Below are positions 16,594-21,953 of a stretch of 64,000 bases of DNA, piece after piece (within the stretch, counting starts at the first letter, position 1; each line of letters starts with the position of its first letter). A model generated the notes under the pieces. The model worked only from the letters and a program-made list of their open reading frames with translations, did not search any database and was not told where the DNA came from. Both the position numbers and the translations under genes were made by a program. The DNA comes from Clostridiales bacterium (GTDB lineage: Bacteria; Bacillota; Clostridia; Christensenellales; UBA1242), in assembly GCA_015055605.1 (NCBI GenBank), contig SVHV01000001.1, positions 315,026-379,025 of the forward strand, in the 5' to 3' direction.

Positions 16594-17655
16594 TTAGTTT
16601 TCGATATCGTCTTTTTCTCTAAATCTAACTCTCTTAGCAGCATTTTTTCTAATATCATCAGAGATTGCTGCATAGTGTTTTCTGGTTGTATTTACATCTT
16701 TGTGTCCTAAAAAATCTGCAACCACATAAATATCACCAGTCTCTCTATATAGGTTAGTACCAAAGGTACTTCTTAGTTTGTGTGGGGTAATTTTCTTAAG
16801 TGGATTTACTAATTTGCTGTATTTTTTTACTAGTAATTGGACTGCTCTTACAGATATTCTTTTATTTTGCATACTTAAAAATAATGCTTTTTCGTGTCCA
16901 GGTTGTGTCTTTACCATTCTGCGCTCAAGTATATAATTTTGTAGGGCATCTGAGACTTCTTCGTTAAAGTATAAAATAACTCTGTTGCCACCTTTTCTGG
17001 TAATTTTAAAAGCATTCTGTTTAAAATCAAAATCATCTATATCTAATCCAACACATTCTGAAATACGAATTCCTGTACCCAAAAAAAGTGATAACATAGC
17101 ATAGTCTCTGGCTCTAGTATGCTCATGAAAACCCTTCTGCATATTAGTCATGTCTTCGCCAGTTTCAGCAATATCTAGAACCCTCTCAACCTCATCTAAC
17201 TCAAGTCGAATAATCTCTTTGTCATGAATCTTGGGTGTTTCTATTTTATTAGCAATATTAGTCTTAATCATATCTTTCTTATAAAAATACTTAAGCATTG
17301 CTCTAATACTACTAAGTTTTCTAGCTTTTGCACGATCTTGATTTTTATGGATTTTACCATCAGCTTTATAAAGTTCTACATACTCAAGAAACATTTCTAG
17401 ATGGGTAGAGGTTAGTCTATCTAAGTCTGTAATATCTAACTCAGTCACTTTCTTAGAAGAAAACTCGCTAACTTCCATAACTAAAAATTCAAAGAAAAGT
17501 TTTAGGTCTCTAGCATATCCTAGTTGAGTGAGGGGGGTTGTATTCTGTGCAACACCTCTAAAGAAATCACCGAGGAATGGTGGTAGAAACTTCCTTATCT
17601 CTCTAATTTTAAATTTGTTTTCATCATCTCTTTGTGTAAAATAATCTACAGGCAT
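16594..17655 (-). CDS. Tyrosine recombinase, XerS/XerC-like
   Basis: This is a site-specific recombinase of the phage-integrase family. The N-terminal SAM-like core-binding domain (~residues 30-135) contains 'LGYARDLKLFFEFLV' and 'RAKARKLSSIRAMLKYFYKK'. The catalytic set is complete: Arg197 ('GTGIRISE'), Lys221 ('RKGGNR'), His292 and Arg295 ('TPHKLRSTFGT'), His318 ('FLGHKD') and Tyr328 ('TRKHYAAI'). The length of 353 aa, with extra residues before the core-binding domain and an insertion after it, resembles the single-recombinase XerS type more than ~300-aa XerC/D, but this was judged by eye. No excisionase or phage genes are nearby and lexA is next to it, so chromosome dimer resolution is more likely than prophage integration. 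A dif-like palindrome lies 1.3 kb upstream. Confidence 0.88.
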   Translation of the reverse strand: MPVDYFTQRDDENKFKIREIRKFLPPFLGDFFRGVAQNTTPLTQLGYARDLKLFFEFLVMEVSEFSSKKVTELDITDLDRLTSTHLEMFLEYVELYKADGKIHKNQDRAKARKLSSIRAMLKYFYKKDMIKTNIANKIETPKIHDKEIIRLELDEVERVLDIAETGEDMTNMQKGFHEHTRARDYAMLSLFLGTGIRISECVGLDIDDFDFKQNAFKITRKGGNRVILYFNEEVSDALQNYILERRMVKTQPGHEKALFLSMQNKRISVRAVQLLVKKYSKLVNPLKKITPHKLRSTFGTNLYRETGDIYVVADFLGHKDVNTTRKHYAAISDDIRKNAAKRVRFREKDDIEN

Positions 17656-17690
17656 ATTTTAAACCCCTACTAGTATTTTGCGAATAATTT

Positions 17691-17826: not shown

Positions 17827-18708
17827 ATGTATATTGCAAATGACCTAAAAAGAGAATTTTTACTTCCAAAAGGTGACGAGTATAGAGCTGGTTTTGGAAA
17901 CATTGTATTTGAAATATTAGAGAGATTCATTGAAGACAAACCAATGTTTACAATGGATAACTTTACGCTTATGTACTGTGATGAGTTTTCAATGAAGACA
18001 TCATGTCACAAAGATATATTCTCAACAATGTACTTAGAGATTAATCAACCTAATAATTACAAACCAAAGAAAATCTCTCTTACTGATAAGAAGAAAGATA
18101 AGATTGAAATACCAGAATTGTACTTCAGTTTAGAAGACTTTAAAAAATCATTCTTTGAAACAGCTGTACAGTATCTAGATGGAAACAATTTAATCTGGGT
18201 AGAGAAGAATTCTATCTGTATCAAAGCAACGGTATATGATGAGGATATAGGCATACAACCATACTACTTAAGAATAATTCCTTGTCTCACATTCTTTAAT
18301 AAAGAAAATGAACGAGGTGTTATGTACTATGCAGGTAGAGATATAGAAATTGAATATCCATTACAAGCTGTAGCAAATTATGAGAGCAAAAATACTCTGA
18401 CTGGTGATGTATACAGACAGACATGTTTGATATTTAAAAACATTCTTCTCAAAGAAAAAAATATCGATAGACTTCCTAGTGAGATAATAGAAACAGTCTT
18501 ATATAATGTTCCAACAGAGATGTACTTAGATGATAAACATACAACTATGCTAAGCATTGTAAACTATTTAAGAAATAAAAATGTAAAAGAATTTGTGACA
18601 CTAGATGAACAAGATTATGCTTTTACTAGTCTATATAGGTCAATGTCACTTTTCTATGTAAAACATATTCTAAAGATAATAGAGAAATATTTAGAGAGGG
18701 CAAGATAA
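17827..18708 (+). CDS. Uncharacterised protein, possible degenerate OAS/CD-NTase-like nucleotidyltransferase fold
   Basis: I do not firmly recognise this 293-aa soluble protein. The second half recalls the nucleotidyltransferase/OAS-like layout: 'YYLRIIPCLTFFN' where those enzymes have a 'vdvVPa' strand, 'YPLQAVANYESKNTLTGDVYRQTCLIFKNIL' like the 'hP..H..n...kn..t...yr...R.lK' helix, and 'LPSEIIETVLYNVPTEMYLDD' like the 'ipSyllE.l.ynvP...f' helix. The active site is not recognisable: where hG[GS]...[DE]h[DE]h should be there is 'MYCDEFSMKTSCHKDIFSTMYLEI'. If the fold call is right, it is probably a non-catalytic relative. It stands alone, divergent from the recombinase, with a weak RBS (GTGGTG) and its own terminator. 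No effector gene typical of an anti-phage CBASS system is adjacent. Confidence 0.4.
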   Translation: MYIANDLKREFLLPKGDEYRAGFGNIVFEILERFIEDKPMFTMDNFTLMYCDEFSMKTSCHKDIFSTMYLEINQPNNYKPKKISLTDKKKDKIEIPELYFSLEDFKKSFFETAVQYLDGNNLIWVEKNSICIKATVYDEDIGIQPYYLRIIPCLTFFNKENERGVMYYAGRDIEIEYPLQAVANYESKNTLTGDVYRQTCLIFKNILLKEKNIDRLPSEIIETVLYNVPTEMYLDDKHTTMLSIVNYLRNKNVKEFVTLDEQDYAFTSLYRSMSLFYVKHILKIIEKYLERAR

Positions 18709-18723: not shown

Positions 18724-18909
18724 TTTGCAATATGGTACTACGCAAAATACTATGCAAGTAAATTAGTGTATTTTGCATAATATCAAAATATTGCTTTTTT
18801 ACGAACTTTTTTAACACTTTGCAATATTACTCAAAGTGATACAAGTTTGATAATTACAATATATAATAATAATCCATATATTATATCAAAATCTAGGTTA
18901 AAATATGCC
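18724..18909. other. Non-coding repeat-rich spacer
   Basis: No plausible gene is present. The stretch contains recurring short motifs: TTTGCAATAT twice (18724 and about 18825), and a 9-bp inverted repeat GCAAAATAC (18742-18750) / GTATTTTGC (18768-18776). Together with the palindrome at 18910-18945 and the TATTTTGCGAATA copy in the recombinase leader (about 17680-17692), it forms a family of related sites around the recombinase and the NTase-like gene. Confidence 0.5.
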
Positions 18910-18945
18910 AAACTATTCGCAAAACTAGGCTTTTGCGAATAGTTT
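18910..18945. repeat. Perfect 15-bp palindrome with 6-base centre (dif-like geometry or bidirectional terminator)
   Basis: AAACTATTCGCAAAA and TTTTGCGAATAGTTT flank the centre CTAGGC. Its inner 28 bases are two perfect 11-mers, TATTCGCAAAA and TTTTGCGAATA, around six bases, the 11-6-11 layout of Xer/dif recombination sites. A short T run follows, so it could also act as a terminator. However, both flanking convergent genes appear to have their own terminators (18695-18723 and 18985-19039). Confidence 0.6.
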
Positions 18946-18984: not shown

Positions 18985-19123
18985 AAAAAAGCACCTCAGC
19001 CAACAAGTAAATACTTATTTACTCATTAACTTTAGGTGCATTATTTCTACTCTCCCCTTGATTATAGATGGGCACACTACTGAGATTTGGACTAAACAAT
19101 TTTACCCAACCCTATCTATATAG
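18985..19123 (-). ncRNA. Candidate structured RNA 3' of the YgjP gene, ending in a branched terminator
   Basis: Read on the minus strand, a 10-bp stem with one bulge joins TATAGATAGGG (which includes the YgjP stop codon) to CCCATCTATA (19063-19072), enclosing a possible TTGG/CCAA inner helix. After a purine-rich joint comes an outer stem GCACCT (19039-19034) / AGGTGC (18996-18991) followed directly by six U. Inside it sits a perfect 8-bp hairpin, AGTAAATA-AG-TATTTACT. At the least the second part is the YgjP terminator. Whether the whole is an independent or processed RNA is inference. I recognise no known family. Confidence 0.4.
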
Positions 19124-19783
19124 ACTGAGGACATAATCGTACTCTTTAAGAATCCTCTGTTGTAGTTTATATGATGGTTGAACTAGTGATATTATTTTAT
19201 AAAAATCTTTAGAGTGATTGAACTCCACTATGTGTGTCAGCTCATGCACAATGACATAATCGACTGCATTGTGTGGAAGCATCACTAGTCTAAAATTTAA
19301 TTTGATATTTCTATCCTTGTCACAACTACCCCATCTAGTCTTACTATTGGTGATGGTTAGTTTACCATAGTCTATCTGCATCATCTGACCAAAGAACTCT
19401 AGTCTATCTGCAAGAATCTTCTTAGCGTTACTAATATACCATCTCTTAATTTTCGGAACAATTTCTTTATCTTCAATTTTAGATGGTAATGCTAGTTGTG
19501 TATCGGATAGTTCAATTTTCTTTAGACCATTTATCTTAGTTACTTTATATTTATTACCTAAGAACAGTATCTCTTTATATGATATAACATCTTTATTTAT
19601 ATTTAGTTTGTTCTCTATCTCTTTTTGCTTAGTTCTGATCCACTTTTCTTTTTCTGAAACATATTTCATAATTTCACTAAGTTTTAGTTTCTTAGGCGCA
19701 TGTATTACCAACTTACCCTCTTTGGTGATTGTAATTGACAAACTGCGTCTGTGGGTCCTAACTATTAAATCTGGATTTACCAT
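19112..19783 (-). CDS. YgjP-like zinc metallopeptidase domain protein (DUF45/M48-type)
   Basis: The 223-aa protein carries the YgjP/SprT-like signature 'TRWGSCDKDRNIKLNFRLVMLPHNAVDYVIVHELTHI', in which HELTH is the zinc-binding HExxH. 'EFNHSKDFYKII' supplies the third ligand region. The N-terminal beta domain ('RSLSITITKEGKLVIHAPKKL') and 'KEKWIRTKQKEI' helix are also typical. Proteins of this family are predicted cytosolic metalloproteases. Some occur next to type I restriction genes, but none are seen here. The RBS AGGAGA and a minus-strand promoter precede it. It stands alone. Confidence 0.9.
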   Translation of the reverse strand: MVNPDLIVRTHRRSLSITITKEGKLVIHAPKKLKLSEIMKYVSEKEKWIRTKQKEIENKLNINKDVISYKEILFLGNKYKVTKINGLKKIELSDTQLALPSKIEDKEIVPKIKRWYISNAKKILADRLEFFGQMMQIDYGKLTITNSKTRWGSCDKDRNIKLNFRLVMLPHNAVDYVIVHELTHIVEFNHSKDFYKIISLVQPSYKLQQRILKEYDYVLSLYR

Positions 19784-19842: not shown

Positions 19843-19893
19843 CTAATAATGGCGAAAATAGTAGTATATTTTGTAGAGTGCATAGTATTTTAT

Positions 19894-19922
19894 TTGACTA
19901 ATTATGTATTATTATATAATAT
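19894..19922 (+). promoter_or_regulatory. Putative promoter of the PadR-membrane fusion gene
   Basis: TTGACT (19894-19899), a 17-base spacer and TAATAT (19917-19922) lie in very AT-rich DNA; an overlapping TATAAT starts two bases earlier. The RBS GGAG precedes the ATG at 19959. Confidence 0.55.
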
Positions 19923-19958: not shown

Positions 19959-21953
19959 ATGGCTAAAAGAAGAAGAAAAAGAATTGCATCAAGGGGTTCA
20001 GTTAACAATACAATACTAAAAACCCTAATTAATGGCGATAAATATGGATATGAAATTATCAAAGAGGTTGAAGAATTTTCTGATGGAAAAATCAAATTAA
20101 AACAACCTAGCTTATATAGTAGTCTATCTAGATTTGAAGAAAAAGGTTTCGTTACTTCATACTGGGGCGACAGTGATATTGGTGGTAGAAGACACTACTA
20201 CCATCTTACTGAGTCTGGTATACAATACTACGAAAAAGAAGTTCTCAAACTTGGCAGAGACGAAGATGTTGAAAATGAGGAAGAGGAAGAAGTTATTGCA
20301 GAAAACATTGAAAGCGAAGATGAAGACGAAGAAATCGTCTTAACAGAAGTAGATGAAACTGAGATTCCTAGTATAGCCACCTTCCCTGACAAAGAGGAAG
20401 AGGTTGTCATTCCTGACCATCAATTCTACAAACAAACACCTATTGAAAAACATATTCCTCAAAGCGATAGATTTGAAGAACAATATGTGTTAAAGAAGGC
20501 AGCAACATTTGATTCTGCACCTATTACAATATCTGCCACCCCAACCCCTACTAATATCCAACCTACTCCAGCAGACTCAATTATGAAAGAGGTATCGCCT
20601 TGGAAAATACAAGCTGCTCAAGCAAAAGAAAGCAATACTAAAGTATACAACACTGCGCTTAGAAAATTACATTATGTTAAGGTAGAAGGTATAGAAGAAA
20701 AACCAGAAGATAATGTAGAAGAAATAATAGAAGAAAAAGTGCCAGAAGTAATTGAAGAAACAACAATTACTCCTGAGCCAGTGATAGAGCCTGAGGTGAT
20801 AGAAGAAACACCACAACCTATCACATCTAATTCCAAAATTATTATTAAAGATAAAGATGGTATCTTCAAACTTAGGGACTCTAATTACGACCCTAATAAA
20901 CCTGTTGAAAAGAGTAAACCAGTTATAATTGATAATGTTATCAAGAGAAGAAATCCAAACAATGTATTTGGTTATACAGCTTATTCCGAACAAACCAACA
21001 AAACCCCTACCCCCAAATCAACTATTGAAATATCTGATGAGGAAAGAAAGCAAAGAAACGAAAACTTTGTTGAAAAATTCAATAGCATATCTAGAACTAA
21101 GCAACAAGATAAAGCAGAAGAAGATTTATCAAAAACTTATATACATAAACTTGATATGTTAAGAGTATCAGGAGAAAGAGACGACACGCCTCCTCCACCA
21201 CCTCGTAATTTTGAGCCTATCATTACCAGGTCAATCCTTGACGAAGAAGACGAGGAAGAGGAAGAAGAGTATCTCACACCTCAAGAACCTGAAATAGAAC
21301 AAAACAATATGTTTGAATATGTTGACGAAGAAGACAACATTGTTGACTTAGAAGAGGAAACAGTAGAAGATAATATTGTAGACCTAGAGCCAGAACAATT
21401 CGAGACTAGGAACGACAATAAACAATATATAGAAGAAATCTCCAACTATTCAGCACCGAAAGAAACACTTAAAATGAATAGGTATGAGAATAAAACTACT
21501 GCTATTTTATCCGATAAAACCTATGTACTAATCAATAAAGTTAAGTTTGTCTTTGGATTATTACTAGCAATAATTATGGTGGCTGAATTACTCGGCACAT
21601 TTGTATTACTAAGAGACAGAGGATTAATCATTGATAATGACAATACACTATTTGTAGTTAGCTATGCCATCACAGGCTTCTTAGCACTAATATACATACT
21701 CCCTGTAATCTTTAATGCCAATGAACATAGACTAAATAACTTTAAAATGAAATATGCAATTATATTCGGTATACTAACATTCTTAGTTTCTATGATACTT
21801 ATATATTGCGTAAATACTCTATTAGGCTTTAAGTTAGACAACTTTGAATTCTTTGCTACAAAAATTATAGTTCCTGCAGTTATGGTATTTAACTTTGTTA
21901 TTTTACCACCTATCTATGGACTATTACTTAAATCAAAGAAATTCTATGACTAA
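19959..21953 (+). CDS. PadR-type winged-helix regulator fused to acidic linker and membrane domain
   Basis: Residues ~14-95 are a PadR winged helix ('TILKTLINGDKYGYEIIKEVEEFSDGKIKLKQPSLYSSLSRFEEKGFV', then 'GGRRHYYHLTESGIQYYE'). Ordinary PadR proteins end soon after. Here a ~425-residue disordered linker follows, very rich in Glu, Asp, Pro and Thr ('ENEEEEEVIAENIESEDEDEE', 'PPPPP'). From about residue 525 there are four membrane helices ('KFVFGLLLAIIMVAELLG', 'VVSYAITGFLALIYILPVIF', 'YAIIFGILTFLVSMILIY', 'IIVPAVMVFNFVILPPIYGLLL'). The N terminus is very basic (AKRRRKRIASR). This suggests a DNA-binding head tethered to the membrane, either a one-component sensor or a DNA-membrane anchor. The function is unknown. 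It is monocistronic; the TVP38 gene ends two bases away on the other strand. Confidence 0.85.
   Translation: MAKRRRKRIASRGSVNNTILKTLINGDKYGYEIIKEVEEFSDGKIKLKQPSLYSSLSRFEEKGFVTSYWGDSDIGGRRHYYHLTESGIQYYEKEVLKLGRDEDVENEEEEEVIAENIESEDEDEEIVLTEVDETEIPSIATFPDKEEEVVIPDHQFYKQTPIEKHIPQSDRFEEQYVLKKAATFDSAPITISATPTPTNIQPTPADSIMKEVSPWKIQAAQAKESNTKVYNTALRKLHYVKVEGIEEKPEDNVEEIIEEKVPEVIEETTITPEPVIEPEVIEETPQPITSNSKIIIKDKDGIFKLRDSNYDPNKPVEKSKPVIIDNVIKRRNPNNVFGYTAYSEQTNKTPTPKSTIEISDEERKQRNENFVEKFNSISRTKQQDKAEEDLSKTYIHKLDMLRVSGERDDTPPPPPRNFEPIITRSILDEEDEEEEEEYLTPQEPEIEQNNMFEYVDEEDNIVDLEEETVEDNIVDLEPEQFETRNDNKQYIEEISNYSAPKETLKMNRYENKTTAILSDKTYVLINKVKFVFGLLLAIIMVAELLGTFVLLRDRGLIIDNDNTLFVVSYAITGFLALIYILPVIFNANEHRLNNFKMKYAIIFGILTFLVSMILIYCVNTLLGFKLDNFEFFATKIIVPAVMVFNFVILPPIYGLLLKSKKFYD

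Follow-up and report, generated by a model that had tools for sequence, protein, structure and literature searches.

Conserved boxes beside a likely dif site and at the promoter of a predicted integral-membrane PadR protein encoded at the replication terminus

How the terminus of the chromosome is held at the division site and released from it is known mainly from MatP of E. coli and from FtsK. The parts of FtsK and SpoIIIE are four membrane helices, a long linker that varies in length, and a DNA-binding region, and both proteins act at dif and at the septum (PMC5357621). MatP is a site-specific terminus protein tied to division; it contacts the membrane without being membrane-integral, and it has 23 matS sites (PMC6538776). 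In Streptococcus pneumoniae, RocS links chromosome and membrane through an N-terminal DNA-binding domain, a middle region, and a C-terminal membrane anchor (PMC11500499). LmrR and LftR, of the PadR-2 subfamily, are soluble, single-domain proteins of about 100-130 residues. The operator bound by LftR, a PadR-2 relative, is located upstream of the LftR coding region itself (PMC6457526).

The window, i.e., the whole stretch of 64,000 nucleotides that was analysed, encodes a protein, here named PadR-TM, which has features in common with each of these systems. Its ORF contains no internal stop (Table 1). The head matches the Pfam PadR family with 67.4 bits (E 1.1e-18, cut-off 27), and the nearest solved structures are of the LmrR type (E 7e-20 and about 1e-19). 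Both signature tyrosines of the PadR winged helix (PMC6457526) are present in an alignment of 34 sequences, within the motifs KYGYE and SLYSSL. Y53 of SLYSSL is invariant, and Y29 of KYGYE, the putative equivalent of the first signature tyrosine, is conserved in at least 90% of the sequences. AlphaFold2 predicts membrane helices at residues 525-553, 559-585, 597-621, and 626-658, with pLDDT mostly above 90 in head and tail and a mean of 90.8 for the tail modelled alone. PadR-TM is predicted to be an integral-membrane PadR. The tail matched no Pfam family and no solved structure (best E 0.8).

A PadR head, a long acidic chain, and four membrane helices in one ORF are what the original prediction had read from the DNA, and the Pfam match and the modelled helices bear it out. 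The linker, given there as 425 residues, measures 429, with 24.9% Asp and Glu, 11.7% Lys and Arg, 7.9% Pro, and a net charge of -57. It had also been described as disordered. This holds for most of its length, where pLDDT is below 50, but a helix is predicted at residues 360-403 (pLDDT about 70-83), as are short elements at 214-230 and 293-307; the linker is thus not entirely disordered.

Table 1. Coordinates of the PadR-TM gene, its parts, and the neighbouring genes and sites (positions in the window)
Feature	Position	Strand	Basis or remark
PadR-TM gene (head, acidic linker, four membrane helices)	19959..21953	+	664 aa, single ORF
PadR winged-helix head, aa 19-92	20013..20234	+	PF03551; LmrR-like solved structures
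Acidic, mostly disordered linker, aa 96-524	20244..21530	+	composition and AlphaFold2
Four-helix membrane tail, aa 525-658 (predicted)	21531..21932	+	AlphaFold2; kept in relatives
Predicted sigma-70 promoter TTGACT-17-TAATAT	19894..19922	+	consensus match alone
Promoter box, GTGCATAGTATTTT, immediately before the -35 (TTGACT) of PadR-TM	19878..19891	+	kept in the genus and in further genera
YgjP-like metallopeptidase, between dif and PadR-TM	19112..19783	-	
Candidate dif, ACTATTCGCAAAA-CTAGGC-TTTTGCGAATAGT	18912..18943	.	one copy per genome, skew switch, near Xer gene
Third, opposed half-box, TGCATAATAT	18774..18783	+	
Tandem boxes beside dif, TACTACGCAA-AA-TACTATGCAA	18736..18757	+	array pattern once in own genome
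Conserved protein, 3' end facing dif	17827..18708	+	weak match, anti-phage nucleotidyltransferase model
Tyrosine recombinase, XerS-like, presumed dif partner	16594..17655	-	

In its winged-helix head, its tyrosine motifs, and a putative autoregulatory operator, PadR-TM resembles LmrR and LftR, to which it adds the 429-residue linker and the membrane helices. Regulators of the PadR family bind palindromic operators, in many cases at the promoter of their own gene. A PadR-2 protein is a single small domain, about 100 residues long, in which the C-terminal helix serves dimerisation, whereas PadR-TM has 664 residues and a C-terminal head helix that is predicted to be short (residues 85-95, AlphaFold2); membership is claimed for the PadR fold family only. 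Compared to FtsK and SpoIIIE, the order of the parts is reversed, with the membrane part at the C-terminus and no motor ATPase, and no sequence relation to these proteins was found. By analogy, the plan resembles that of a motor-less FtsK turned end to end. A replacement of FtsK is ruled out, since FtsK is encoded separately. In coupling DNA to the envelope, PadR-TM would work like RocS (PMC11500499) or MatP (PMC6538776). The likeness to RocS is one of architecture, and membership is not claimed: RocS has DUF536, a coiled coil, an amphipathic helix, and an interaction with ParB, whereas PadR-TM has four membrane helices, and no dif-side array is described for RocS in the source cited. MatP, which brings the terminus to the division site, differs in its many sites, spread over the terminus region, and in not being membrane-integral, while the locus described here has one array beside dif and the protein has membrane helices. 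A MatP-like spread of sites over the terminus was not found in the genome scan, which gave one dif array and the own promoter. Literature searches that paired PadR with the replication terminus, or that asked for PadR proteins bound to the membrane or for the box sequence, returned nothing relevant, nor did they reveal a membrane-integral protein that has sites of its own next to dif.

The architecture is shared by relatives. A match was obtained in 86 of 99 related genomes, many of the order-level matches being short PadR proteins of the ordinary kind. The head, the linker, and three or four hydrophobic C-terminal helices share one ORF in most of about 58 loci, all from one order, and the linkers differ widely in length and sequence. 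A chance ORF or an assembly fusion is ruled out by this conservation. The original prediction had proposed a search for the architecture in relatives and had named loss of the fusion in all of them as the opposing outcome; the fusion is instead kept across the order. When a profile of the tail was run against 245 genomes of the class, nine were matched, eight from this order and one weakly and with a stop; among these genomes, the tail is practically confined to this order. A first scan of genome contigs returned merely an ordinary PadR of Lachnospiraceae. Some members of the family lack the gene, e.g., G032, which is 100% complete and gave no match. In another family of the order, a 994-aa protein of G074 (L190:3446-6430, minus strand) located beside dif keeps the membrane tail, and its N-terminal part matched no Pfam family.

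The PadR-TM locus is the replication terminus. Along contig C3 of the genome, in the stretch that contains the window, the GC skew changes from about +0.27 to -0.24, and the coding strand switches from nearly all plus to mostly minus. The same flip of skew and strand was seen in the flanks of eight of ten sampled relatives, G060 and G072 being the exceptions. The window starts with the C-terminal part of FtsK (10-1086), followed by RecA, a class A PBP, MutS, MutL, MiaA, LexA, Xer, an unknown protein, YgjP, PadR-TM, a VTT-domain (DedA-type) protein, and an ABC transporter; the identities of RecA, MutS, MutL, and MiaA were taken from sequence or Pfam. For Xer, XerS was the best of all models, with 184 bits, below the NCBIfam cut-off of 267. 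The conserved protein facing dif scored 46.9 bits against the anti-phage nucleotidyltransferase model, well under the cut-off of 350. A role of PadR-TM as regulator of the adjoining VTT/DedA and ABC genes is not favoured, as many relatives have the architecture without these neighbours. Beyond the PadR-TM locus, a predicted repeat-type surface protein of 10,736 residues is encoded on the minus strand (26078-58288), and close relatives encode very large proteins resembling it at the corresponding position; the genome has further ones at other places.

Published dif prediction relies on a single copy per genome and on nearness to the GC-skew switch (PMC3025954). The palindrome listed in Table 1, which consists of two inverted arms around a short centre, lies at the skew switch and near the Xer gene, and it is likely to be dif. 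Its 24-bp core, TTCGCAAAA-N6-TTTTGCGAA, is matched in 22 of 60 genomes, in each case by exactly one copy. The arms are nearly invariant and identical across families, and the six central bases vary, which is the pattern expected for recombination sites. The palindrome also scores as a terminator; a plain terminator is disfavoured by the identical arms, the variable centre, and the single copy. The XerS/difSL system likewise joins an XerS-like recombinase to a dif near its gene, with similar arms (difSL TTTCCGAAAA, PMC5357621, against TTCGCAAAA here), but the centre of difSL has 11 bp, compared to 6 bp between symmetric arms in the present candidate.

PadR-TM typically lies about 1 kb from the predicted dif. 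The distance is at most 2.5 kb in 15 of the 18 genomes having both, with coordinates hand-copied from two genome scans. When up to two mismatches were allowed, the site was found within 4 kb upstream of PadR-TM at 35 of 58 loci and never in shuffled sequence. Half of the palindrome, ATTCGCAAAAT, also occurs on the minus strand at 17675-17689, directly upstream of the Xer gene; this half-site recurs in many genera and perhaps serves Xer autoregulation.

A conserved box with the consensus TGCATAGTAY and the palindromic form TACTATGCATAGTA is found at two places in this region. At the PadR-TM promoter, the box GCATAGTAT sits immediately upstream of the -35 hexamer and is kept across species and genera. 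Beside dif, the box lies between two convergent genes at 130-210 bp from the palindrome, often as direct repeats, and the distance from array to dif is nearly fixed (150-208 bp) in the genus and near genera. In an alignment of five species, the box array and dif are practically the sole conserved blocks in the approximately 260 bp before dif. In G006, where dif is 7.7 kb from PadR-TM, the array is still about 0.2 kb from dif. Tandem arrays are rare: 10 were found in 60 genomes, of which seven are beside dif (two overlapping in G002). No known RNA was found in the intergenic region holding array and dif.

These sites stand out in quantitative scans. When the own genome was scanned with a matrix built from promoter sites, the second tandem copy (18744-18757, 172 bp from dif) came first and the own promoter third, and nearly all remaining sites were weaker or within coding sequence. 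Across the loci, the own promoters (11.8 kb) contained 34 boxes against 0.39 expected, the dif flanks (17.9 kb) 28 against 0.56, and the downstream control stretches (220 kb) 7 against 5.5. The promoter sites of the matrix were picked by eye, so that the promoter enrichment is partly circular. The enrichment in dif flanks (Fisher p 9e-18, computed over related, non-independent genomes) is free of this circularity since no dif-flank site entered the matrix. Beside dif, a box could not be recognised at about half of the loci that have a dif candidate, chiefly those of other genera and families. The array of the genus is situated between dif and the 3' end of the conserved protein gene, so that its link to dif is inseparable from a link to that gene; some other loci without such a neighbour have a box near dif all the same.

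The box is provisionally assigned to PadR-TM because of its position and because no other PadR-family protein was matched in the 1.33-Mb genome. It had been suggested at the outset that the protein could place specific DNA at the membrane. This idea has gained support, and a candidate for the DNA can now be named from the sequence, namely the box array beside the likely dif together with the own promoter.

The reading preferred here, to which a probability of just under one half is given, is that PadR-TM is a membrane-anchored, site-specific DNA-binding protein which tethers or organises the dif region and also regulates its own gene. The N-terminal head would bind the TACTATGCA/TGCATAGTA boxes. 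On the box next to the own -35, it would set the level of PadR-TM; the dif-side array controls no obvious promoter. With its length, the linker would allow the head to reach the DNA even though the C-terminal four-helix domain remains in the membrane. The dif region would thus be kept at the membrane. The most plausible place for this is close to the division septum, where the final step of chromosome separation involves FtsK and the Xer recombinase, and segregation or Xer recombination could be affected. If true, a transcription-factor fold would have become an anchor for the chromosome throughout an order of bacteria with small genomes. The tether makes sharp predictions: one array, a narrow range of distances to dif, and one protein. 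The presence of an FtsK gene at the start of the window is counted in its favour, beside the terminus position, the nearness to dif, and the box conservation described above. Several points speak against it. FtsK is present, and a tether is not obviously needed. A recognisable box beside dif is missing from about half of the loci with a dif candidate. The linkage to dif may be ordinary conservation of gene order, given that Xer, YgjP, and RNase H show linkage at a similar frequency. There is a single array per genome, unlike the 23 matS sites, and some relatives have the box near other genes while some family members have no PadR-TM.

Alternatively, PadR-TM may be a membrane-bound one-component transcription factor, the tail of which senses the envelope or membrane and the head of which regulates the PadR-TM gene itself along with a small group of envelope and sporulation genes that differs from species to species. 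This is considered rather unlikely, and the two readings are not mutually exclusive. That the protein might sense the state of the envelope had also been suggested in the original prediction. The position of the box directly upstream of the own -35 in many genera fits such a factor, as does the precedent of the LftR operator (PMC6457526), and boxes near envelope and sporulation genes in single relatives keep the idea alive. Both xer and yunB are preceded by boxes in G016. Clusters between spoIIIAB and spoIIIAC in two genera (G016 and G017; L183:4400-4480 and L185:4180-4280) suggest a link to sporulation genes in these genomes of about 1 Mb. In G020, a box precedes a class A PBP gene, and large putative surface proteins have a box upstream in G005 and nearby in G006. 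The own genome also encodes homologues of the spoIIIA operon and yunB, but its scan gave no strong box at their promoters or at any promoter other than that of PadR-TM. The best site, by dif, lies between convergent genes without a known RNA; the dif-side boxes would then have to control an unrecognised transcript or be a side effect of an old promoter. Moreover, the targets vary between species, whereas the own promoter and the dif flank recur. Even if the transcription factor proved true, it would define an order-wide family of membrane-bound PadR proteins with a tail that has no Pfam match.

A narrower version of the tether, counted separately and judged improbable, is that PadR-TM is an accessory factor or regulator of Xer recombination which, bound next to dif, would promote or restrain synapsis at the membrane instead of serving as a general anchor of the terminus. 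The nearly fixed spacing of array and dif in the genus and near genera and the box upstream of xer in G016 are consistent with this role, but FtsK, the usual activator, is present, and many families have no recognisable box by dif. The least probable of the readings is that PadR-TM is a membrane PadR of unrelated function, its terminus position and linkage to dif reflecting conserved gene order and the boxes belonging to another regulator. The similarly frequent linkage of Xer, YgjP, and RNase H would agree with this, and the assignment of the boxes to PadR-TM is a prediction from sequence. It is opposed by the occurrence of the box at two separate places, the own promoter and the flank of dif, by PadR-TM being the only PadR of the genome, and by the palindromic form of the box, which suits a dimeric regulator.

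Two motifs recur in the linkers of other genera. Y[KR]x[IVL][LM][GAC]x[LI], typically IDYKNILGDLY, was found in 14 of 58 linkers (0.0 expected from shuffles), and Q[YVMES]x[LM]F, e.g., QYDLF, in 14 of 58 (0.6 expected). The latter resembles the sliding-clamp motif Q-aliphatic-x-[L/M]-[F/L] (PMC11139829). In an extended version of the tether, which is given a slightly lower probability than the tether itself, PadR-TM would represent a new class of terminus protein, i.e., a membrane-integral PadR that recognises a dedicated direct-repeat array and keeps dif at the membrane (septum) so that final segregation and Xer recombination can take place, the linkers of some genera carrying conserved docking motifs, one of them sliding-clamp-like. 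The linker of the window protein has just QNNMF, and the closest sister species lack the Gln; the clamp reading is therefore not made for the window protein. The motif-bearing linkers, which are otherwise divergent, include those of L039, L040, L042, L044-L048, L067, L082, and others.
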